A stretch of 23,806 bases of DNA from NCBI GenBank assembly GCA_000467715.1, contig AJFK01000255.1, positions 1 through 23,806 on the forward strand, written 5' to 3'. This DNA is from Hysterium pulicare CBS 123377 (taxonomy: Eukaryota > Ascomycota > Dothideomycetes > Hysteriales > Hysteriaceae). The notes beneath the pieces are model-generated. The model had not been told where the DNA came from, ran no database searches, and worked only from the letters and a program-made list of their open reading frames with translations. The translations under genes and the position numbers were made by a program. Positions 6,296-22,292 of this stretch are shown here, piece after piece (position 1 is the first letter of the stretch; the number at the start of each line of letters is the position of its first letter).

Positions 6296-8757
6296 ATGCC
6301 TTTTGGGAGCTTCCTCTCTGGAAGCGCAAGTCTCGTTGCCGGTTCTGTCGCTTCTGCCTGGCCAGCAGATGATCAAGGAAAGTTTTTTGTAAGTATTCCC
6401 CTCATATTCTCTTGTATTCTGCCCTTTAGTTGGAGTATCCTCTCTTGTACTAGGGAGTCTTTGCACCATGAGTCCTTGCCCGGTCTTCTCCTCTACCACA
6501 CTTCACTTATCTCTCTTTCTACCTATCTTGTATACTCCTGATCTTATCTCCACCTTTCCCTCCACCAGTAGATCAGGTTACTGACTATAGCTTCTAGAGA
6601 CTCAGCCGTGCAGCCTGCAAAGACCTAGCCTCGGGCTACCAGACCCTCTCCTCGATCCCTGGCGCGGTCGGCAACTACCTAGATGAATGCCTCGTACCAT
6701 TATATCCCTACCTTATTCCCTTCTACCCCGATCCAGAGCCACCATCTGCTCCAAACCCAAATCGGGCCCATCCAGCCCTTCCTCCTCAAAAACCTCCTCA
6801 CCAGACCGCCATAGAGCCAGCTATGCAAACAAAGCTGCAGAAGGCCAAAGCGCCACAGAAGGTGGCCAAGAAGAAGGCGGCAGAACGCCGACGGAATAGG
6901 CTCGCTACCTTGCCAATAGACCAAGTCGTAGATGCCACTGGCACTACTCTCACCCCAGGAAAAGAGATTGGGCCGAGTGGCCTACAGGACCACAACGGCG
7001 CTGACGTCGGTGTGCAGTCTGTTGATATTCAGATTTCTGCAGCCTCACCTACTGGGAGCCAACTATTCCATCCTCTTGAAGAGTCTCATTCTGTAAGCGA
7101 TGCTCTAGTTAGAGGCGCTGCTGCTCGAGATGCCGAGTACCGGAAATGGGCTGAAGACAGAGAAGTGGCCAGGGTAAAGGAGCTAGAAGAAGCCGATGCC
7201 AGAGAAGCACAAGCGAAGAAAGAACAGGATGAATGGGACCAAGCCCGCGCACTCAAGCTTCAGGCAGAGCAAGCGGAGGACGATGCCAGGGAAGAGGCAC
7301 GTCAGAAGCAAAAAGCCGAGAAGATGGCCGCAAGCCAAAAGGTTCTTGATGAGTTTATGAAACGGATAAACCCACAAGATATCATGCGTCCTTCTGGAAA
7401 TTGGGGCGAAGGTCTACCTACCATGCTGACGGGCCCATCTCCTTCAGAAGTCATCACAGAAGTGCGTAAGCTCGGGGATGGATCAAACGCGCAGCCGCAA
7501 TCCACAACCACCACATACAACCCATACAACCACGCGAAACCCTCCATTGTCGAACTACTCGCGCAATTCTATCCAGATAGGCTGGCTGCTCTGGAGAAGC
7601 TACATGCCCACGGCCAAAATATGACCAAGAAGTTCAAGGCGATCGATACCATTTTGTATCATACGCTGAACGTGAATAAGGATGCTGTATCGATCATCAT
7701 GCGAACCCTACTGGACGAGGATATCATGCAGGCAGGCATGATTCTCTGCGGCATGCAGCCAGAGATTACTCTTGAGGAATTCGAATTGCTCGGGTGGGAT
7801 CTGGGACCTCATGAGGCGTTCTATCAGCTCATGGAAAACAACGAAGAGCTATTGAATCTGAATCCAAAACTGAAAGATGCGATCTTCCAGCTCCTGCAGT
7901 TGGTCCAGCACTTGAGGCCTAGCGGAGCCACTCAAAATCCATCACCACCAATTCAAACCGCAGCACCAACAGTTCCCACCGGCGTCGGATCTGGTACAGC
8001 ACAGGCAGGAGATGCCGGGTTCAGTATCAAGGGCGCTGGTGGCAGCAGCAACGCAGATGGCTGTCCCCTTGGACCGACTTGGCAAGGTATCCAGAACGGA
8101 GGTTCCTCTACTAAGCCGAACAGCGAGAATCCTTCTGCACCATCCGGGGTCTCCAATCCCACTCCAAATGGATCAGGCCCGGTGGCAGCCTCTGCTCCTG
8201 CGGCGGCTACAGCTCCAGGTGTAGCTCTCGGCCCCACTGGTACTTCGCCATTTGGCACCTTTGGGCCTCCTGCTCCTGTTACTGCCAATGGACCTCCAGC
8301 TCAAGGCGCCGCATCCGCTCCAGGCAGTTCCTCAAACAATGGAAATCCTGCAGCCAACGGCGCAGCCCCCAATAATGGCACACCTCCCAATAAAGGTGCT
8401 CTCTCCCCGGACATGCAGACCAAGAACGCCGTAGTTCAAGCCATGTTAGCCGATGAACCCGAATTCAAGAAGCTAGTCAACAAGCTTAGCGAGGACGTTC
8501 GTGGAGGTAGATCAATCTCAGAGGAGCTACTTACCGAAATAGAGCGGAAGCTCCAGCATGTCTACCTAATGCAGAACTGCTCCCTAAGGATCCTACGGTC
8601 GGATGCCAGCGAATGGATTACTGCCGCTGAACGCTTGTTTAACCTCTTGACGAAGAGGAGGAAGTACTCAAAGAAGTTGGAGAAAAATAACGCCCTGACG
8701 AGCTTCTACGATGGATTAAACCAGGTTCTCACTATATTGGCTGTGGTGAACCGCTAA
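6296..8757 (+). CDS. Coiled-coil, Pro/Ala/Gly/Asn-rich protein, 750 aa, function unknown
   Basis: Exon 1 is 6296-6388 (31 codons, MPFGSFLSGS to QGKFF). The intron is 6389-6597 (209 nt, GTAAGT...TTCTAG). Exon 2 is 6598-8757. Choosing the acceptor at 6597 and not CTATAG at 6590 keeps the frame (RLSRAACKDL, YQTLSSIPGA). Residues about 110-132 are strongly basic (KVAKKKAAERRRNR), which suggests a nuclear signal. Residues about 200-289 are a charged helix rich in Ala, Glu, Lys and Gln, a likely coiled coil. Residues 290-470 look helical and globular. Residues about 473-632 are low-complexity Pro, Ala, Gly, Ser and Asn. The last 115 residues are helical again. I recognise no domain. It converges on SWF1. 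Confidence 0.85.
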
Positions 8758-10747: not shown

Positions 10748-13687
10748 ATGGCCGAACAACAGGCGCAGGTGGTATATAACGATGTCGCCGAAGGATCGAA
10801 TCTCCACGGGCAATTGTTTGAGGGCAAAAGGTTCTGGGTGGCCCAGCGCTGTCCTTCGCGACCCCACTACATTGAGCAGATTCGGAGCAATGGTGGAGAA
10901 GTCGTCATATTAGAGAGACAGGCTGACTACCTCATCGCGGACCATGCACGAAAGGATCTTCCCCCAGGAAGCATTTCTTATAGGTTTGTTGAAGAGTCCC
11001 TCAAGAACGGGGAATTGGAAGACCCTGACGATCATCTCGCTGGCCCTCCTCGAGGGGCGGTTCGAGCCATTGGTTCTCTGAGGCCTCCAAAGAGTGGGCG
11101 AGTGGCTTATACCGCGGAAGATGACAGGCAGTTGTACAAGTGGGTTAAGGACTTTGAGCGTAAGGGAGGGGCTATCTCCGGCAACGAGATCTACAAGCAA
11201 CTCGAACAAGTGGTAAAATTGCGATCGCGGACCATAAGGCATTGCTTTTGGCTAAGTTACTTTAGAATCCTCGACATACATGGCAATCATGGCGCGACCG
11301 TTGGGTTAAACAACTCCAAAATAGACCTCCCTCATCCATTGTGCCTGCCAATGCTCCCCCTTCGCCCCCTACAGATCAGTCGTTCGAGCAAACCATCCCG
11401 CCTAGACCCGCAGCGAGTAACGAGACTACAGCCGAAGGTTCTAACAAGAAAAGTAGTTCCGCGGAAAGAGAGAGCCGCAGCAAGCAAAAAACTCTTGACC
11501 CGGAGAACAAGAAAGATCATGAACCGAAGAGAGTAAAGTTCACAAAGGAAGACTTTGAAGAACTACATTCGAACGTAGAGGCAATAGCTACGACGCCTTT
11601 CGGAGAATACCTGGAAGCTTGGGAGAGTTGGGCAACAGGAACACCGCAGACCGCAGAGCAGTGGAGGGAGTATTTCGAAAAGACGGTGTTGCCACAATGG
11701 AAGAAAGATTCTGAATCAGAAAAAGATAGGATCAAAGAGGCGGTCCAGAACAGACACCAAGCGGAGAAAGACAGCACGAGCCAACACGCCGAAGACCAAA
11801 ACGAGCATTTAGTGGAGCAAGAAGCCAAGCAGGAAGATGGACCCGCCAGAGCATCTACAGAACCTGTCACACCGCCGAAACATAGAGAACGAGGTAAACG
11901 AAGAGCCCAATCGCCAGAAGTTGTTATCATAAGCCCAAGACCGAAGAAAGCTCAGACTCCGCCATTAACAATATCGCCTAATCAGCAAGCAGCATCCGAG
12001 ATAGAGAGGACAGAGTCTCCCAATGCGCTCTTGGAGAGAGGTATTCTAAGATTAGTCCAAACGCGCGGAGGTGAGAAGCCTATAGAAGCGTACAAGTTCT
12101 GGGCGGAGGAGCAGAAACCCGCTCTGAGGGAGGAACAACCCCAACTGGACTATGGTAGGAAACGCTTCATCAGACCTCACTATGCGATTAGCTAACGATG
12201 GAATCCTAGTGGGCATCCAGCGAGAACTCATAAAGCGATGGAACAGCTTGGCTCCCGAAGAGCAAGCACCTTACATAACGATGGAGGTGGCTGATCAAAA
12301 ACGCTATGAGATGGAAGCTTCAACCCCAGTGGAGACGCCGAAATCCCGCGCTGAAAACATTATACACACCCTTGCTGAACTTCACGAAAAGTCGAAGAAG
12401 CGCCGCCGCGAGAATGGTGATGAAGTCACCGAGGATCACCAGCCCGTAGCATCTCCAAAACCCAAGAAGCCACGCCCGGAAAGCCCGCTGTTTGTCCGGG
12501 AAGAAACTTGGGAACAGACTGCGGAATACCCACAGCCCATGGAGATCGATGAAGAAGAAGAAGAGATGACAAAACTAGAGCATCAATTTGACCAACTGAG
12601 CTCACCACGAAAACTAAAGCGTCCTCAGCCGTTCATTCAAGACGAAGAAGTATTAAACCCAATTGCTACGCCACCACTTCACCAAAATTTAGGAACCAAG
12701 GCTAAGCTATCCATAAGGAAGGATACCTATACGATCGTACTCTCTTCTGATGATGGCTCTGACGAAGATGAAGACATGGAGGAATATATCCAGCAAGAGC
12801 TCCAGACTCAAATCTCATATCCGCAACTCGGGCAGTCTGCCAATGATGGCAGTGAGAGACAGGAAGCTCAAGCCCTACAAATCTCACAGTCCCAAACCAT
12901 AGACTTCAGTCTCGCGCCTTCCGAAGGCAGCTTGGAAGGGAGCTCACAGCCGTCTGCAACACCCACGCCGCGTGCTCCCCGTCATAAAGCTGCCGTATTC
13001 GACACGCAAGCTATCCTATCCTCACCCTCTCAACCCCTCGATCTCGGTCTTGCATTCCCAGAAGACGGCTTCCCGCAATCGCAATCGCAATCGCAAACCC
13101 AAACCCAAGAAGGAGAGCCTATCGAATACCCCTCGCTACCCGAGCCCTCCTCTCCAACCCACAAGCAAGATTCCATCTCCACCTCCCAATCTCTCCACGA
13201 ATTCCGACGCTCGCTAAACTCTCGCTCCCCGTCTCCAACCCTCGACATGGCCCCTCCAGCTCCCCCAGCCGACGACGCCGCTTCAGACATCTCATCCCAA
13301 ATCTCGTACCTCTCAGACGCCGAGATCTCCGAAGAAGGCGATCCAGACCCCCCACTTACCGGCCCCGGCGTGCGTGCCTTCTTCGCGGAGCAAGCTTCCC
13401 AGGGCTTTCAACATAACGCCATTGTCTCGGCGCTTAAACACACGACCTTGAGAGCGGAGTTAGCGAAGGTAGTGTTGGCGGCTTGGAATAATGGCGAGTC
13501 GTTGCCGCACGCGAGGGGCATTTGGTCGGAGACGGAGGATGAGTGGTTAGAAGGTGGGGATGGGCGGAAGATTAAGAAGTTGGAGGAGAAGCATTCTTGG
13601 GAGGGGTGGGGTGGATGTGTTGAGAGGATGAACTTTTTGGAGAGGGCGAGGGGGAAGGGGAAGGAGAGGGTTAAGGATGAGGCGTAG
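10748..13687 (+). CDS. RAP1: Rap1-like telomere protein (BRCT, Myb, HMG-like, RCT), 943 aa
   Basis: Exon 1 is 10748-11212, intron 1 is 11213-11265 (53 nt, GTAAAA...CTTTAG), exon 2 is 11266-12154, intron 2 is 12155-12209 (55 nt, GTAGGA...GCTAACGATGGAATCCTAG), and exon 3 is 12210-13687. The joins restore motifs: LEQV|NPRHTWQSWRDRW completes the Myb helix, and LDY|VGIQRELIKRW completes a second box. Domain order is BRCT (about 18-100, FEGKRFWVAQR), Myb (about 118-173), a middle helical module (about 246-305, TAEQWREYFEK), an HMG-box-like module (about 427-490, RWNSLAPEEQAPY), a long Ser/Gln/Glu-rich linker, and the Rap1 C-terminal domain (about 835-925, ending with GIWSETEDEWL). Rap1 proteins bind telomeric complexes and act in end protection and silencing. 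Whether this one binds DNA directly or through a TRF-like partner cannot be read from the sequence. Confidence 0.9.
13074..13109 (+). repeat. Hexanucleotide tandem repeat within RAP1
   Basis: Six imperfect 6-nt units (CGCAAT x3, CGCAAA, CCCAAA, CCCAAG) encode the run QSQSQSQTQTQ in the disordered linker before the C-terminal domain. The unit is a multiple of three, so copy-number change keeps the frame. Such tracts often vary in length between strains. Confidence 0.75.
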
Positions 13688-14379: not shown

Positions 14380-16245
14380 CTACGTTCCCAAAATCTTAGT
14401 CCGCATCCACTCACTAGTGCCCACGCCCAGATTCAACCCATTCCTAGCCCACCACCTTCTAATTTCCTCGCCTCTCGCCCCCTCAACCCCATCTTCCAGC
14501 GCCTCCTCGATATCACAAGTTTTGTATTCGACGCGCAGGCCGCTGCGTTTCCACCACTCCAGCACCTCCGCGTGACCCATTTTGGTAGCGCCGACTAGGA
14601 CTTGATTGTCGAAGAGCATCTTCTCGCCTCGGAGTTTGCGCCAGAAATCTAGAATGTGCGTGTGGCCGTGGGCGGAGGCGAGTTTGGCGACGGTGTCTTC
14701 GTGCGGGAAAGCGATGCCGGAGGTGGACCACCAGCGGAGGGTTGGGAGGAGGCCGGATTGGGTGGCGTAGGAGATTGATTTGCCGACTTTGAGGCGGAGA
14801 CGTTGTCGTGAAGGTGGTGATTCTTCTCCTTGTTGGGGTGATGATGGCTTTGACTGGGGAGGGGTTGGACTGCTCTTAGAGCGGCCGTCGCCATCTACCA
14901 TGCCCTGTTGCTTACCGTCTACCGTGCCATGTTTCTTCCACCATTCTAATACTGCAATGTTCCCTTGACTACTTGCTTGTTCGAGAGCTGCCTCGGTGTA
15001 TTTGAGGGAGAGACCTGAGTTGTACCACCAGTCTAGAACATGGACAAATCCGGCCCTACTTGCATTGTCCATAGCATCGGCGGAGTACTCCTTTGTAAGG
15101 AAGGTAGGCGAAGTGCGCCAGTATTCTAGAATCTCCGTCTTTCCAAATATAGAGGATGCTTTATAGGGTAGGAAAGCATGGCCGAATGTCGACCAGAAAA
15201 GCTCTTTGTGGTTGGTTTCCAGGTGTGACAGAATCGGTAGCATTGCGAACCTCATGATGAGTTTCATGCACAGCAGCGAGAGTCGAGTGGGCTTATCGGT
15301 ATCTAGAACTGCTTTGACGTCGTCAGCGGTACCAATGAGTAGAGTCCATTCCAGCTTTTCCATGTTTGTCTGTGGACCGGCTTCACTGCTGGCTTGCCGC
15401 CATTCTGGAGGAGTTGGGACGGAAGTATGGACATTGAGTGCTGTAGCTAGTTCCCAATCCCCTGTAAAATCTAATATTATGGTCCACAGTTCAGGGGGTA
15501 ATGCTGGTCCACGCTTCTTTGTTGGCTTTAACGCAGGCAATTGTGATAGAGCGACGTCGAAGTCGCGTCCCACAGTCATGAGATCGACTTGAGTCTGGAC
15601 AGACTCCGTGAAAGAATCTACGCCCTCCCATGGGAGCTCCTTACGACCATTGGACTCAAAAGCCCAAAGCAATGGCTGGATGATGCGAATCCAATTCCAC
15701 TTTCTTCGAATCTTAGTGAGCTGTTTTTTAGTCATGGGATTCTCCCACATCAGCGTAGACATGGCCGGAATGAGCAATATTTTCTTTGACACGTCCCAGC
15801 TTCGAAGTATCTCCAAGTGTAAGTTATTGGTCATGCCATGGAGCATGCGGGCAAGGTTCTCAGCGTCAATGGGAGCGAGGACGAGCAGGTCTGCCCAAGC
15901 ACAGAGCTTGGCAGCCTTTTGTTGATATCTCAGGACATCGTGCGGTGCCTGGTTATCTCCATCATCGTAGTATTCGACGTCGGGGACATAGTTGTTGAAG
16001 CGGTGAAGGAGAGGTTTTTCGTAATGGTGGCGATCACAGATGACGGTTCGTGTTTGGAGGGCTTCAAACCTCGACAATCTTCGAACGATATCTAGAGAGA
16101 AGTCGAGGGTGGCAGAGTTAGACGCAGCAACGAGGACGTTGAGAATATGGCCACGGTCGAGATTCGACATTGTGGGAGAGTGGTTGCGGATTGATGGTGT
16201 GAGTGGCTTGGTGGTGGGGAGCGCCTTCAATCGGCATGGTTCCAT
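14380..16245 (-). CDS. Degenerate Hal3/PPCDC-type flavoprotein with F-box-like motif and ankyrin-like repeats
   Basis: Single exon, 621 aa from the first ATG at 16245 (MEPCRL); the ATG at 16170 (MSNLDRGHIL), directly before the domain, is the alternative (596 aa). The frame upstream has no ATG. Residues about 30-185 resemble the flavin-dependent Cys decarboxylase fold of phosphopantothenoylcysteine decarboxylase and Hal3: LNVLVAASNSATL, WADLLVLAPIDAENLARMLHG (117 onward), NNLHLEILRSWD, PAMSTLMW (160-167). The family's key residues are altered: Ala111 replaces the catalytic His, Ser163 replaces Asn of PxMNxxMW, and the Cys-containing CGxxGxG loop is absent. LPPELWTIILDF (249-260) is F-box-like. 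From about residue 380 there are repeats of the type A(S/T)xxGxxxVLxWW, related to ankyrin repeats, interrupted by a Ser/Pro linker. Catalysis is unlikely; flavin or protein binding is possible. Confidence 0.85.
   Translation of the reverse strand: MEPCRLKALPTTKPLTPSIRNHSPTMSNLDRGHILNVLVAASNSATLDFSLDIVRRLSRFEALQTRTVICDRHHYEKPLLHRFNNYVPDVEYYDDGDNQAPHDVLRYQQKAAKLCAWADLLVLAPIDAENLARMLHGMTNNLHLEILRSWDVSKKILLIPAMSTLMWENPMTKKQLTKIRRKWNWIRIIQPLLWAFESNGRKELPWEGVDSFTESVQTQVDLMTVGRDFDVALSQLPALKPTKKRGPALPPELWTIILDFTGDWELATALNVHTSVPTPPEWRQASSEAGPQTNMEKLEWTLLIGTADDVKAVLDTDKPTRLSLLCMKLIMRFAMLPILSHLETNHKELFWSTFGHAFLPYKASSIFGKTEILEYWRTSPTFLTKEYSADAMDNASRAGFVHVLDWWYNSGLSLKYTEAALEQASSQGNIAVLEWWKKHGTVDGKQQGMVDGDGRSKSSPTPPQSKPSSPQQGEESPPSRQRLRLKVGKSISYATQSGLLPTLRWWSTSGIAFPHEDTVAKLASAHGHTHILDFWRKLRGEKMLFDNQVLVGATKMGHAEVLEWWKRSGLRVEYKTCDIEEALEDGVEGARGEEIRRWWARNGLNLGVGTSEWMRTKILGT
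14520..15110 (-). repeat. Protein-level repeat: ankyrin-like units with Trp-Trp ends
   Basis: At least five related units are encoded: ASRAGFVHVLDWW, ASSQGNIAVLEWW, ATQSGLLPTLRWW, ASAHGHTHILDFW and ATKMGHAEVLEWW, with a partial EIRRWW at the C-terminus. Spacing is about 33-36 residues except around a Ser/Pro/Gln insertion between the second and third. The GH..VL core matches the second part of an ankyrin repeat. The WW ending is distinctive. Confidence 0.7.
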
Positions 16246-17681
16246 AGTGCAGTCTGCTGCGCGTGATTGGTGGATGTGACTAACAAGGGATGTGGTCGTG
16301 ATACCTCCATGCGTGCGTCGATTCACTGAAAGAGGTCATGATGCTGTCTCAGCGGTGAGAACGGGGCGGACAACAAGTGCATCGAGTATGCGTATGTTCT
16401 TCTGTCAATGGTGCAGGGCATCGATGGCCCTGGCTTGTCAGGGTTGTGGCGCAGTGGCATTCCTGTCCTCAACGGGAATGCCATAATGCCATGCTGCAGG
16501 CCGTGGCTGTCAACAATCCCATTTCACCTTCGCAAGGGTTGCCGTTTGCTTGGCCGACGTAGCCCTTATCTACCATCAGCGGCGTTCACCCAGGCCCTCA
16601 ATTCCCTACCCAGGCATGCCTCCACAGATGCAAGAACCAGGAGAAGATTTGCTGTGAGGTCAGCCCACTATGATCACCGTTTGCACCGCCGGCAGCGCCA
16701 GAAGGCTGCGTTTCAGACGGCTTGATGCCTGCCTAGAACAACCCCCCGCCGCGCATCTTGCCTCGCTCTTGTTAGCAGCATCGTCTCTGAGCGCAGCACC
16801 TTGCACTTTCTCCTCTGCCAGTGGTTGACGTCGACAATGATCTTCCCTCTGCATCCCCGAAACTCACGCAGCCTGTGAAAATGCTGGCCATGTCGTCGTT
16901 AGTGTCGCTGTGGCTTTCGACTCCCGCACCGTGTTTCTCCCATGACTCTCCCAAATTGTCGTGCCATAGACATCGCCCTAATTCCTCCACCCACCGTCCC
17001 CAGTCCCTTAGCTCCACCACATCTAGATAACCTCTGTCTCCCTGACCTACTGCTGTCTACGTCGCCCTCAGTGCTTCCGTTCCTCAACCCACGTACATGT
17101 GCGCTTCCCCCAGGTGTTCGTCCCATCTCAAACCCTGCCTTGCGCTGGTGAGCCCGACGAGCAACGCACGACAACCACAGAGAAAGACCAAGCCAAATCC
17201 AGGGTCCACGGTCTGGTCCAATACGACTGCCGCCACACATATCTTGTGTCCTTGCCCGTCGCCTCAATCATATTCCCTGCATACATTGCAACGCGTAATT
17301 TCACGGGGAAAGCCGTCATTCGTGTTCCAGGATACCGCTTCTGCAATTCACCTTCTTCGACGGAGACGGTTTGAAAACCAGACAACCCGAAGCCACAGGT
17401 GGCGAGCATTCATCGTGCATGACCTGCATTGATGCGTACGCTCTGCCAAAATATTCTACCACCCTCAGCACCGTCGTTTGTGAGACTCCCGCGCGACCTC
17501 ATGGCGACTTGATCGCCAAACGACGCTCATTTGCCTTGGCGACATTTTGACCAGAATCTTTCTGCCAGGCGCTCGGCCCGATAGACAAGCCGCAGAACAT
17601 ACGCCGTGTGCCCGAACCTCTTTTCCCGTCCCTACCTGTCTGCGGCCAGCGGGCTTGCAGAAGAGTCCCGGAAACGGCTCA
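16246..17681. promoter_or_regulatory. Shared upstream region of the flavoprotein and phytochrome genes
   Basis: About 1.4 kb separates two divergent start codons. The plus strand from about 16700 to 17680 is rich in C and T, as expected for a promoter and long leader of the phytochrome gene. A frame joined to the phytochrome is open back to 17547 but lacks an ATG, and short upstream ATGs occur (for example at 17096). A leader intron is possible but I could not define one. No RNA gene or repeat is evident. Confidence 0.5.
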
Positions 17682-20600
17682 ATGTCTCAACCATCGAGCA
17701 GTCGGCCTGACGTCGAGCCTTCTTCAAAAGATGGCGGGGTTGAACCTCCCTCACCGTCATCGTCCAAGCCCCGGCAAAGATCTCCCCATCCTCCCAGCGC
17801 ATCGGTGGCTTCACCCTACGAAGGCATGTCGTTAAGTCCCGGGGTTACTGATCGCGTATTTCCTATACGTAGCGTCGTGTCTATGGATCCGACTCCTACG
17901 CCCTCTCGAAACCCAGACAAACAAGGAGACTACTTTTCCCAATACACTCGTCCTTCTGATGCTCGAGCTAGCGGCGCCCGTAGAACGTCTACAAGTTCCA
18001 CGGCCTCGTACTCCTCCCAACGTTCTCAAAGAGCCTCTCAACCCAGTCAAAGTACATTAAATCAAGACATAACTCCTAAGGCTGAAGCGCAGTCTACATC
18101 TGAAACGTGGAGGGGGTCTGCAAGAGCCGAAGCTTCAAGAGCTGCTCCACCAAGACTACCTGCGCAATTATTCAATGACATAGTTTCGAGCAGATCCAAC
18201 GAGAGCGAGAGCCGGCCGGACCCGATGTTGGCAGAGAAAGGCGCTTCAGTTGAAGGCTCTTCCATCAAGAGTGTGCAGAGTAGCGTAGGGGATATGAGTG
18301 GTTTGTTCACAGCTCGGTTCAGGCATGTGGTGACCGAAGGAGGACACGCAGTCATAACTGGGAGAGATGGGGATACACTACAACGCTGCGAGGATGAACC
18401 TATACATATACCCGGCGCTGTACAAGGATTCGGTCTACTGATTGCCCTTCAGGAAGATCCTAATGGTAGCGGCATTCTCCCCGTTAGAATTGTAAGCGAA
18501 AATTCCAGACGGATCATCGGACGTTCTCCAGGAGAGCTTTTCGCACTGGAAAGCTTCACGGACATTCTGTCAGAAGAACAGGCAGACAATTTGTTAGACC
18601 ACATAGACTTCATTCGGGATGCCGATGCCGATGTTGCTACTAATGGTCCGGAAGTTTTCACCATGTCCATTAAATCTCCAGGTGGAAGGTCACGGAAGCT
18701 CTGGTGTGCAATGCACGTGAACGACGCAAACCCCGGCCTGATTGTTTGCGAGTTTGAACTCGAGGATGATCAGTTGCATCCACTGGTGCCTCCGAACGAC
18801 CACACACCCGAACTTCCAGAAGATACACTCAACAGCAAGCCCACCGCGGAAGAATTTGCCGAGAGCACTGAAACGAAGAGTAGACCGCTCAGAGTATTGA
18901 GGAGTGCCAGGAAGCGGAAAGGTGAAGCTGCCGCTATGGAAGTTTTCAATATCATGGCCCAAGTCCAAGAGCAAATGGCAAACGCACCCAATCTCGAAAG
19001 ATTTCTGAAAGTCCTAGTGGGCGTCGTCAAAGAGCTCACTGGCTTTCACCGGGTAATGATATACCAATTTGATCAGGCATTCAATGGCCGAGTCGTAACG
19101 GAGCTGGTAGATCCTAGAGCGACCAAGGACCTGTACAAAGGACTGAACTTTCCTGCGTCAGACATACCGAAGCAGGCCAGAGAGTTATACAAGCTGAATC
19201 GAGTACGCCTGCTCTATGACCGCGATCAAGAGACCGCGCGACTTGTGTGTCGTTCTGTTGAAGACCTCGAGCATCCTTTGGACCTTACCCACGCATACCT
19301 ACGGGCAATGTCACCTATACATCTTAAATACCTTGCAAACATGGCGGTTCGATCATCAATGTCAATATCCATAAATGGTTTCAACGAACTCTGGGGCCTC
19401 ATTGCTTGCCATTCTTACGGCCCGCGAGGGATGAGGGTCTCATTCCCAATCCGTAAAATGTGTCGCCTGGTGGGAGATTCAGCGTCGAGAAACATTGAGC
19501 GGCTTTCCTATGCATCCAGATTGCAGGCCAGAAAACTCATCAACACTGCTCCAACTCAAAGCAATCCTTCAGGATACATCATTGCTTCTTCGGATGACTT
19601 GCTCAAGCTTTTTGATGCCGACTTTGGGGTATTGTCAATACGAGACGAACCCAAGATTCTCGGTGAACTCGAACAGTCGCAGGAGGCGCTGGCTATGTTG
19701 GAATATCTCCGAATGCGGAAGATCACATCAGTTCTATCGTCACAAGACATTGCCCAGGACTTTCCCGATCTTCGATACCCCCCAGGCTTCCAGGTCATCG
19801 CCGGCATGCTTATAGTACCATTGACAGTAGGCGGCGATGATTTTATCGTTTTTTTCCGCAAAGGCCAACTCAAGGAAGTGAAATGGGCAGGGAATCCTTA
19901 CGAGAAGTTCGTCAAAGAAGGTACAGAAGGTTATCTGGAGCCAAGAAAGAGTTTCAAGACGTGGTCAGAAACCGTTGTTGGCAAATGCCGCGAATGGACA
20001 GAGGAAGAGACTGAAACCGCTGCGGTTCTCTGCCTCGTGTACGGCAAATTCATCGAAGTGTGGAGGCAGAAAGAGGCCGCCCTGCAGAGTAGCCAACTAA
20101 CCAGACTCCTATTGGCGAACTCTGCCCATGAAGTACGCACCCCGCTGAACGCGATAATCAACTACCTGGAGATAGCCCTTGAGGGTTCGTTAGATCAAGA
20201 AACACGAGAAAATCTGGCCAAATCCCATTCCGCATCGAAGTCACTTATTTATGTCATCAATGACTTGCTAGACTTGACAAAGACCGAAGAGGGGGGCGCG
20301 CTCATTAAAGGTGAGATCTTTGACTTGAAAGCCACATTACGCGATGGTACAGACGTGTTCCAGGGAGATGCGAAGCGAAAGGGAATCACCTACGAAGTCA
20401 TCGAGCACCCAGGAGTCCCACAGAATGTTATTGGTGATCATCGAAGAGTTCGACAGGCAATTTCAAATATCACAGCCAATGCTATCAAGAACACTTCCCA
20501 GGGTGGAATCAAAGTCGAGATGTATGTCGCATCCTTCCCCGCCAAAGACCATTGTGAGGTTGAGGTGGTTTGCACGGATACGGGCGTGGGCATGAACTCC

Positions 20601-22292
20601 AAGAAGCTCGATCAGCTATTTAGAGACCTCGAACAGGTTCAGTCAGAAACATCCTCCTCGCTTGAAGATGCGATTGTACCGTCAAAGACCATCAGCGACG
20701 GGAAAAAAGAGAAGTCAACATTGGGACTCGGTCTTGCTGTGGTTGCGCGTATTGTGCGGAATATGAATGGACAACTACGGCTCAAATCTGAAGAGGGCAA
20801 AGGATCTCGCTTTGTGATACAATTCCCCTTTGATTTGCCCGACTCGGAAATCAAAGAGAGCCCTCCACCTATGTCGCCAGAGGGATTACACACTCCGCAA
20901 CCCGGCACTCCTCAGCCAGAAGGGGAAATCACACTTGTTTCCAGAGACCTAGCAGGCAGAGACTCCGGTAGCGAGACAGTGACCCGCAAAGAAAGTGCCG
21001 AAAGTCTCACCAGTAAAACCAGCCTAAGGAGCTTCAAGAGCGGTTCAAGCATCAAAAGTGCGAGGAGCGATGTCGATAGGCTTATTGAGGCAATACAAGA
21101 ACCTCATCTAGTTGAGAAGCGTCCAAAGCCTGGCGAGCGACGCCTGAGTAATAGATCCGCACAGCCGACTCTGAGGAAGAGTGGCAGCGTTGGAAGTCTG
21201 AACAGAAGCAATCCATCCTCGCCAAGAGGGAGTCGCTCTAAAAGTATTGAACAATCGGAGCGTGTGGGCCCGAAAGTTCCTGTGCATCAGCGATCGACGG
21301 AGGTGCAGAATCCAGGAGAAGAAAAACTACTTCATTCGGGAACATCAGTCAAGGCAATCAAGGTTCCAGATGATGCTTCATCACCCGTGGACAATAATGC
21401 TTCTCGATCGATATCTGGCGTGCTGGGCGAGGTTCCCGATAGTCCTCTAGAGCATGTAGACCCCTTTTCAGCAGAAAATATGCATGTACTTGTAGCGGAA
21501 GATGATCCTGTCAACAGCAAAATCGTCACAAAGAGACTGGAGAAACTTGGCCACCACATCTATCTGACTGTTAACGGGGAGGAATGCGCTAGTGCATTCG
21601 GGGACAAGCCCAAGAACTTTGACGTCGTCTTGATGGACATGCAAGTAAGTCAACCGAGGCGGAACATCTCAGGTGCCTTTTACTCATAACTGTCTCTTTT
21701 TTAGATGCCCATAGTTGATGGCCTTACCTCCACGAAAATGATTCGGTCATTTGAAAAGACTCACCCTAGAGCCCTATCCCCGCGAGCCTCCGCCAACGGT
21801 CGGATACCTATCATAGCCGTGTCAGCTTCTTTGCTTGAAAAGGAAAGGCAAAAATACATTGATGCTGGTTTTGATGCCTGGATCCTCAAACCCATATCTT
21901 TTCCCCGGTTGAGTGAGCTGATGATAGGTATTGTTGATGCCACAATCCGTGAGAAACTACTCTACGAACCCGGTCAATGGGAAAAGGGGGGTTGGTTTCA
22001 TCGGGGACAAGCAAACGCACAAGATATCAACACCGCTCCATCAGGCCAAACTCCTATCACCAATCCATCTAAGTCGGTCCGAGCTGCCGCTTCTTCAGAT
22101 GAACCCACTAAGAGTGATACTCCAGGCGAGATTTCTGATGAACAAAAAGGACCTCCAGAAGAGCAATTGAAACAACAATCCGGTTCGTCGTCAAGTGCTA
22201 AACGTATGCATTATGAGGATACTCCGGGAGACACTGAGGACACCTCCCAGATCACACCTACACGGCCTATAGCAAGTCCTGATCCTATATGA
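17682..22292 (+). CDS. fphA: Fungal phytochrome, hybrid histidine kinase (red-light receptor)
   Basis: Exon 1 is 17682-21644, the intron is 21645-21704 (60 nt, GTAAGT...TTTTTTAG), and exon 2 is 21705-22292, giving 1516 aa. I chose the first ATG in frame (MSQPSSSRPD). After a disordered N-terminus of about 215 residues come PAS with the biliverdin-attachment Cys236 (RCEDEPIHIPGAVQGFG), GAF (about 436-606, PASDIP, SPIHLKYL), PHY (about 620-785, tongue EPRKSFKTW), HisKA with phospho-acceptor His816 (NSAHEVRTPLN), HATPase (about 917-1053: N box ANAIKN, G1 DTGVGM, G2 GLGLA), a Ser-rich linker, and REC (about 1266-1395: Asp1274/1275, phospho-acceptor Asp1319, Lys1383). All catalytic and chromophore residues are present. 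Fungal phytochromes of this class signal through a histidine phosphorelay and the Hog1 pathway in response to red light and temperature. The symbol follows Aspergillus FphA by similarity. Confidence 0.95.

Follow-up and report, generated by a model that had tools for sequence, protein, structure and literature searches.

How a protein can retain a recognizable enzyme domain after losing the residues on which its chemistry depends is a question raised by one gene of the ascomycete Hysterium pulicare CBS 123377, found on a 23,806-nucleotide stretch of DNA analyzed in full (contig AJFK01000255.1 of assembly GCA_000467715.1, positions 1 to 23,806; hereafter the window). The encoded protein of 621 residues joins an N-terminal domain related to phosphopantothenoylcysteine decarboxylase (PPCDC) to a C-terminal region of ~380 residues and, unlike the PPCDCs AtHAL3a and human PPCDC of the same family (PF02441), lacks the catalytic His, Asn, and Cys. 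As an overall explanation we favor, with a probability of about 0.62, a pseudo-PPCDC in which a non-catalytic binding or oligomerizing module precedes a repeat scaffold. The features on which the argument turns are the following.

16245-14380, minus strand: whole coding frame, 621 amino acids plus stop, open without intron or internal stop
15526..16164, minus strand: PPCDC/Hal3-fold (HFCD) domain, residues 28-240 (Pfam, phmmer, structure model, Foldseek, VIA-align)
15697..15918, minus strand: best match to PF02441 (Flavoprotein), residues 110-183 (Pfam)
15913..15915, minus strand: Ala111 in place of the catalytic His90 of AtHAL3a (phmmer and several alignments; a gap instead in MAFFT)
15757..15759, minus strand: Ser163 in place of the catalytic Asn142, within PAMSTLMW (phmmer and alignments)
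15748..15750, minus strand: Met166, the retained equivalent of Met145, the Met of PxMNxxMW (phmmer and alignment)
15598..15660, minus strand: residues 196-216, the expected site of the Cys loop, without Cys (alignments)

The N-terminal domain is homologous to PPCDC and is modeled in the PPCDC fold. Its PF02441 score of 32.6 bits (34.4 bits in a search of the genome) lies above the cut-off of 22.7, phmmer aligns residues 89-180 with residues 68-159 of AtHAL3a free of gaps, and the segments WADLLVLAPIDAENLA and PAMSTLMW begin at residues 117 and 160. A model of residues 28-242, to which Foldseek and VIA-align were applied, has the Rossmann-like HFCD fold. A sequence-only reading of this DNA had already assigned the domain to the flavin-dependent Cys decarboxylase family, an assignment that turned on the presence of an HFCD fold and is upheld by the profile score, the AtHAL3a match, and the model alike; its placement of the frame at 14380..16245 was also correct (minus strand, 621 codons plus stop, uninterrupted).

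A published review gives, for AtHAL3a, His90, Asn142, and Met145 as required for the first step of the reaction and Cys175 for the second (PMC9604783). In the window protein the His column is occupied by Ala111 in some alignments and by a gap in four MAFFT settings, and by His in none; the gap-free phmmer alignment sets Ser163 on Asn142; and the position of the Cys loop varies by alignment among Ser198, Trp206, and a gap, with no recognizable loop and no Cys anywhere in residues 116-325. The three losses claimed from sequence alone, namely Ala for His at 111, Ser for Asn at 163, and a missing Cys loop, are therefore borne out.

Bacterial relatives provide a measure of how unusual these changes are. 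These are the best 80 of 362 loci retrieved by a pair of patterns that included PAM[SN]T[LA]MW, and conservation was counted in 79 after one was dropped for an X. His and Asn are present in all 79 and Cys in 76. The Asn of the PAM[SN]T site, where the search left N or S free, is found in 80 of 80; conservation of the P, A, M, T, M, and W around it is built in, because both search and extraction required the pattern. Of the 58 columns with conservation of 90% or more, 26 are kept in the window protein (27 in one of the four settings), mainly in the WA, AP.DA, LA, PAM.TLMW, and P.T elements, and 45 in the intact PPCDC of this fungus, described below. Further near-invariant positions are altered (Thr to Cys70, Lys to Arg133, and Asp to Asn140), and in the GSV loop Asn43 replaces a Gly that 71 of 80 relatives have. 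For binding of flavin mononucleotide the picture drawn from these columns is one of some near-invariant positions kept and others changed.

Introns poorly explain the missing residues and are unlikely to conceal them. CGD, HI[EDN][LFM], and PAMNT are absent from all three minus-strand frames over 15300-16400, and a looser Cys pattern has a single match there, VCPD, whose frame contains 17 stops. A strict scan of the gene for donor, branch, and acceptor found no intron. A relaxed scan gave 29 donor/acceptor pairs, of which 11 are in frame; pairs starting at residue 201 would remove the Cys-loop region rather than restore the loop. Measured relative to five reference frames, of which four lie in the window and one is the PPCDC of the genome, the frame has a codon bias of 0.149 bits per codon, and the other two frames of the same strand have -0.056 and -0.068; the best antisense frame over the gene is also positive, at 0.099. 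Most likely this is a real gene that needs no introns, though it may have some.

That the activity may have been dispensable here is suggested by the rest of the genome (37.2 Mb in 596 contigs). A six-frame search, which could miss a gene split by introns or missing from the assembly, returned two PF02441 matches, the window gene and C458:11341-11994. The latter belongs to an open frame of 254 amino acids with LHIELRRWAD, PAMNTAMW, and ACGDTGVGAM, matching AtHAL3a on either side of a short insertion. This insertion, of ~25 residues in the intact PPCDC (L001:1429-2193), directly precedes PAMNTAMW and is absent in the alignments from AtHAL3a, human PPCDC, and the window protein; intron scans found no in-frame donor/acceptor pair bracketing it. 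The window protein and the intact PPCDC share 32% identity overall and 31-38% in local segments. Because an intact PPCDC is present, the window gene should be dispensable for synthesis of coenzyme A (CoA) and would be free to be non-catalytic. With all three catalytic residues lost beside an intact paralogue, decarboxylation by the window protein is judged from its sequence to be very unlikely.

The second part of the architecture is the fused C-terminal region, in which the following can be distinguished.

14383..15198, minus strand: seven WW-type repeats of ~30 residues each, ankyrin-like, residues 350-621 (motif and profile analysis)
14788..14925, minus strand: Ser/Pro-rich insert between two repeats, residues 441-486 (repeat spacing, intron scans)

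The motif [ILVT][LIR][RDE][WFY]W occurs seven times in residues 350-621, at spacings of 31, 29, 70, 29, 30, and 34, and at most twice in any of 20,000 shuffles of residues 241-621, a comparison to be read with the fact that the motif was written only after the repeats had been noticed. The 70-residue gap holds the Ser/Pro-rich insert, which has normal codon bias and is excised exactly by none of the pairs of the relaxed intron scan. The repeat consensus, xxxASxxGxxxxLxWWxxSGL, is presumably reminiscent of ankyrin repeats of the GHLEVVKWL type. A protein search of the same genome with the repeat region finds itself only, and no sister repeat gene. A degenerate DNA pattern of the repeat found nothing in viral contigs, and a looser one matched four places in the H. 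pulicare genome, one of them the window gene, versus three for a reversed control. A search of the PDB with the C-terminal part gave no match at E ≤10. The genome as a whole has at least 167 Ank_2 matches.

From the catalytic loss and the proposed repeat solenoid follows a probable role as a non-catalytic adaptor. The domain would no longer decarboxylate but would keep much of its core and part of the flavin/substrate pocket; it could then act as a platform for binding or oligomerization, and the repeats could form a solenoid holding a partner protein. Such an adaptor might sense flavin or a CoA precursor, or might join the intact PPCDC.

Several results weigh against this explanation. We infer the adaptor role from architecture alone. 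The input alignment for the structure model consisted of 31 bacterial PPCDC sequences, picked by hand from the 80 relatives (L043, which contains an X, was omitted), and so favors the PPCDC fold. No relative of the same architecture that would show selection on the frame was found in prokaryote genomes and viral contigs, where whole-protein searches gave 12 and 4 pattern matches, respectively, none confirmed; given these collections, fungal orthologues would not be expected. For the repeats, Pfam gives no ankyrin match with the whole protein; Ank_4 (PF13637) reaches 13.9 bits (E 0.072) for 381 residues and 16.0 bits (E 0.016) for residues 361-621, both below the cut-off of 22.7. The two repeat halves score 5.5 and 6.3 bits in an ankyrin profile built from all 20 of 20 best-scoring loci of the same genome, values reached by 3 and 5 of 2,000 shuffles, compared with 64.5-95.6 bits for members left out in turn, which are not independent because several loci share one gene (e.g. 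L123, L128, and L139). A single-sequence model of the C-terminal part has a predicted local distance difference test (pLDDT) score of 39, too low for use.

The repeats thus share with ankyrin-repeat proteins a period of ~30 residues and a sub-threshold profile match, and differ from them in a W-W signature of their own and in scoring far below the ankyrin segments of the genome in a shared profile. Ankyrin identity is only suggested by these profile scores. Of the ankyrin-like modules proposed from sequence alone, what stands is the presence of fused tandem repeats of ~30 residues; the ankyrin-like label itself, at 16.0 bits against 22.7, is reasonable but weak.

Among other explanations for the same architecture, one makes the protein a regulatory pseudo-subunit that enters the trimer of the intact PPCDC without contributing any catalytic residue to the interfaces in which it takes part, thereby reducing or localizing CoA synthesis, with the repeats tethering the complex. 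The biology of the family offers some encouragement, as PPCDC active sites lie between subunits and the S. cerevisiae enzyme mixes subunits each without part of the site (PMC9604783). The position of AtHal3 Leu117, which is reported to have been tested in yeast Hal3 for trimer formation (PMC6168597), is still hydrophobic (Met138, in a gap-free alignment). The protein nevertheless departs from the yeast precedent: Hal3 and Vhs3 of S. cerevisiae keep the His and Cab3 keeps the Asn and Cys, whereas the window protein has lost all three and supplies neither half of a site. In residues 124-150, 10 of the 19 near-invariant columns survive, barely above the 26 of 58 for the whole domain, and the identity to the intact PPCDC is modest. 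Entry into the trimer is accordingly doubtful. A broader conjecture, somewhat more doubtful still, is that a conserved fungal family uses a dead PPCDC domain as a sensor or docking module for the CoA-synthesis machinery, signaling to the repeat scaffold; if true, a network of protein interactions would thereby be coupled to CoA or flavin status.

Flavin chemistry on another substrate, performed by residues that have migrated, would find a candidate in His102, nine residues upstream of the lost His, and in Thr164, Met166, and Trp167, which are kept from PxMNxxMW. The further near-invariant columns that have changed (Cys70, Asn140, Arg133, and Asn43) speak against it and make it improbable.

In a different division of labor, the protein would recruit substrates to SCF ubiquitin ligases as an F-box adaptor, and the PPCDC-like domain would be an accessory. 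This reading depends on one segment.

15391..15507, minus strand: F-box-like segment (LPPELWTIIL...), residues 247-285, not confirmed by profile

LPPELWTIIL, at residues 249-258, looks like the beginning of an F-box, the profile score of the segment is matched by only 8 of 2,000 shuffled versions of residues 236-300, and fungal proteins combining F-box and ankyrin are known (PMC7991009). Although this motif is shared with F-box proteins (PF12937), the segment fails the profile test. It scores 3.4 bits in a profile of F-boxes from the same genome (29 of the 30 best-scoring loci, L117 being omitted for a stop), in which the 29 members left out in turn score 28.3-53.1, a range that very divergent F-box relatives would fall below because the members are the best-scoring of the genome. 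Pfam F-box gives no match with the window protein at E ≤10, where HMMER filters drop most matches above ~0.1, and the gene is outside the at least 129 PF12937 matches of the genome (150 of 181 candidates scored). An F-box is thus unlikely, and the two claims made earlier, of an F-box-like module and of a ubiquitin-ligase adaptor that had LPPELWTIIL as its single basis, fail in a profile that recovers the best F-boxes of this genome. The main claim of the sequence-only reading is right, but its "F-box" should go and its "ankyrin" should stand as a likelihood.

Inhibition of a Ppz phosphatase in the manner of Hal3 is the least probable alternative. The domain has the Hal3 fold, and yeast Hal3, which like Vhs3 retains the catalytic His, still inhibits Ppz1 when that His is lost. 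Yet the inhibition is tied to two features, an N-terminal BBxxxVTF motif and a C-terminal tail of acidic residues, and when the shorter Hal3-like proteins of S. pombe, C. neoformans, and U. maydis were tested, they inhibited very poorly or not at all (PMC9604783 for the Hal3 literature). Searches of the window protein for BBxxxVTF and looser variants found none, nor any V[TS]F, and its last 60 residues, near charge balance with 11 acidic (D/E) and 10 basic (K/R) residues, form no acidic tail, which distinguishes it from Hal3, Vhs3, and Cab3 of S. cerevisiae and from C. neoformans Hal3 (6eoa), and weakens the parallel drawn earlier with yeast Hal3 as a Ppz1 inhibitor.

Whether the pseudo-PPCDC is peculiar to this fungus bears on its importance. 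In a table of PF02441 and UbiD gene counts for Aspergillus, Penicillium, and relatives, P. oxalicum, A. fumigatus, and Arthroderma benhamiae have no UbiD and exactly two PF02441 genes, and all other rows list one UbiD gene or more together with a minimum of three PF02441 genes (PMC9200314). The H. pulicare genome likewise has two PF02441 matches and no UbiD match. PMC9604783 describes two related genes in N. crassa, one in a few ascomycetes besides S. pombe, and two in C. neoformans that both encode working PPCDCs. Since both members of the latter pair work and some ascomycetes have a single gene, a second PF02441 gene need not be a pseudoenzyme. Such counts hint, without proof, that the second gene of filamentous ascomycetes is often an orthologue of the window gene. 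If it is, this would be a widespread undescribed family rather than a curiosity of one fungus, and a widespread uncharacterized gene would gain a testable role.

The architecture is undescribed in the open-licence literature searched for this domain order or for PF02441 in fungi, among the matches listed and as far as titles, opening lines of abstracts, and selected passages show, in agreement with the earlier statement that no described protein of this kind was known. Main-text passages from a survey of the F-box proteins of A. nidulans refer to ankyrin and make no mention of flavoprotein. With Hal3 and Cab3, fungi already provide an example of an enzyme fold recruited to a second function. 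A member of this family without any catalytic residue and with a repeat tail would show the non-catalytic role by itself, free of the essential CoA function, and the gene could therefore be deleted for direct study.

The start of the frame may lie further downstream than annotated above.

16168..16170, minus strand: alternative start codon, Met26 (codon bias of residues 1-28, -0.006 bits per codon)

As residues 1-28 are without coding bias, Met26 is possibly the true start.

In the surroundings of the gene, positions 17682-22289 of the plus strand encode a phytochrome histidine kinase (PAS_2, GAF, PHY, HisKA, HATPase, and receiver), transcribed divergently from the pseudo-PPCDC gene with ~1.4 kb between the start codons. 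Its receiver is split over two frames near 21689-21705, probably by an intron, each half falling below the Pfam cut-off. A 644-residue frame at 6823-8757 on the plus strand has a charged start and a Pro/Ala/Gly-rich middle, with no Pfam match at E ≤0.01. A DHHC gene is also near the locus, and 10748-13687 on the plus strand encodes, in several frames, a Rap1-type telomere protein with BRCT_2, Myb_Rap1, a sub-threshold HMG_box, and Rap1_C.
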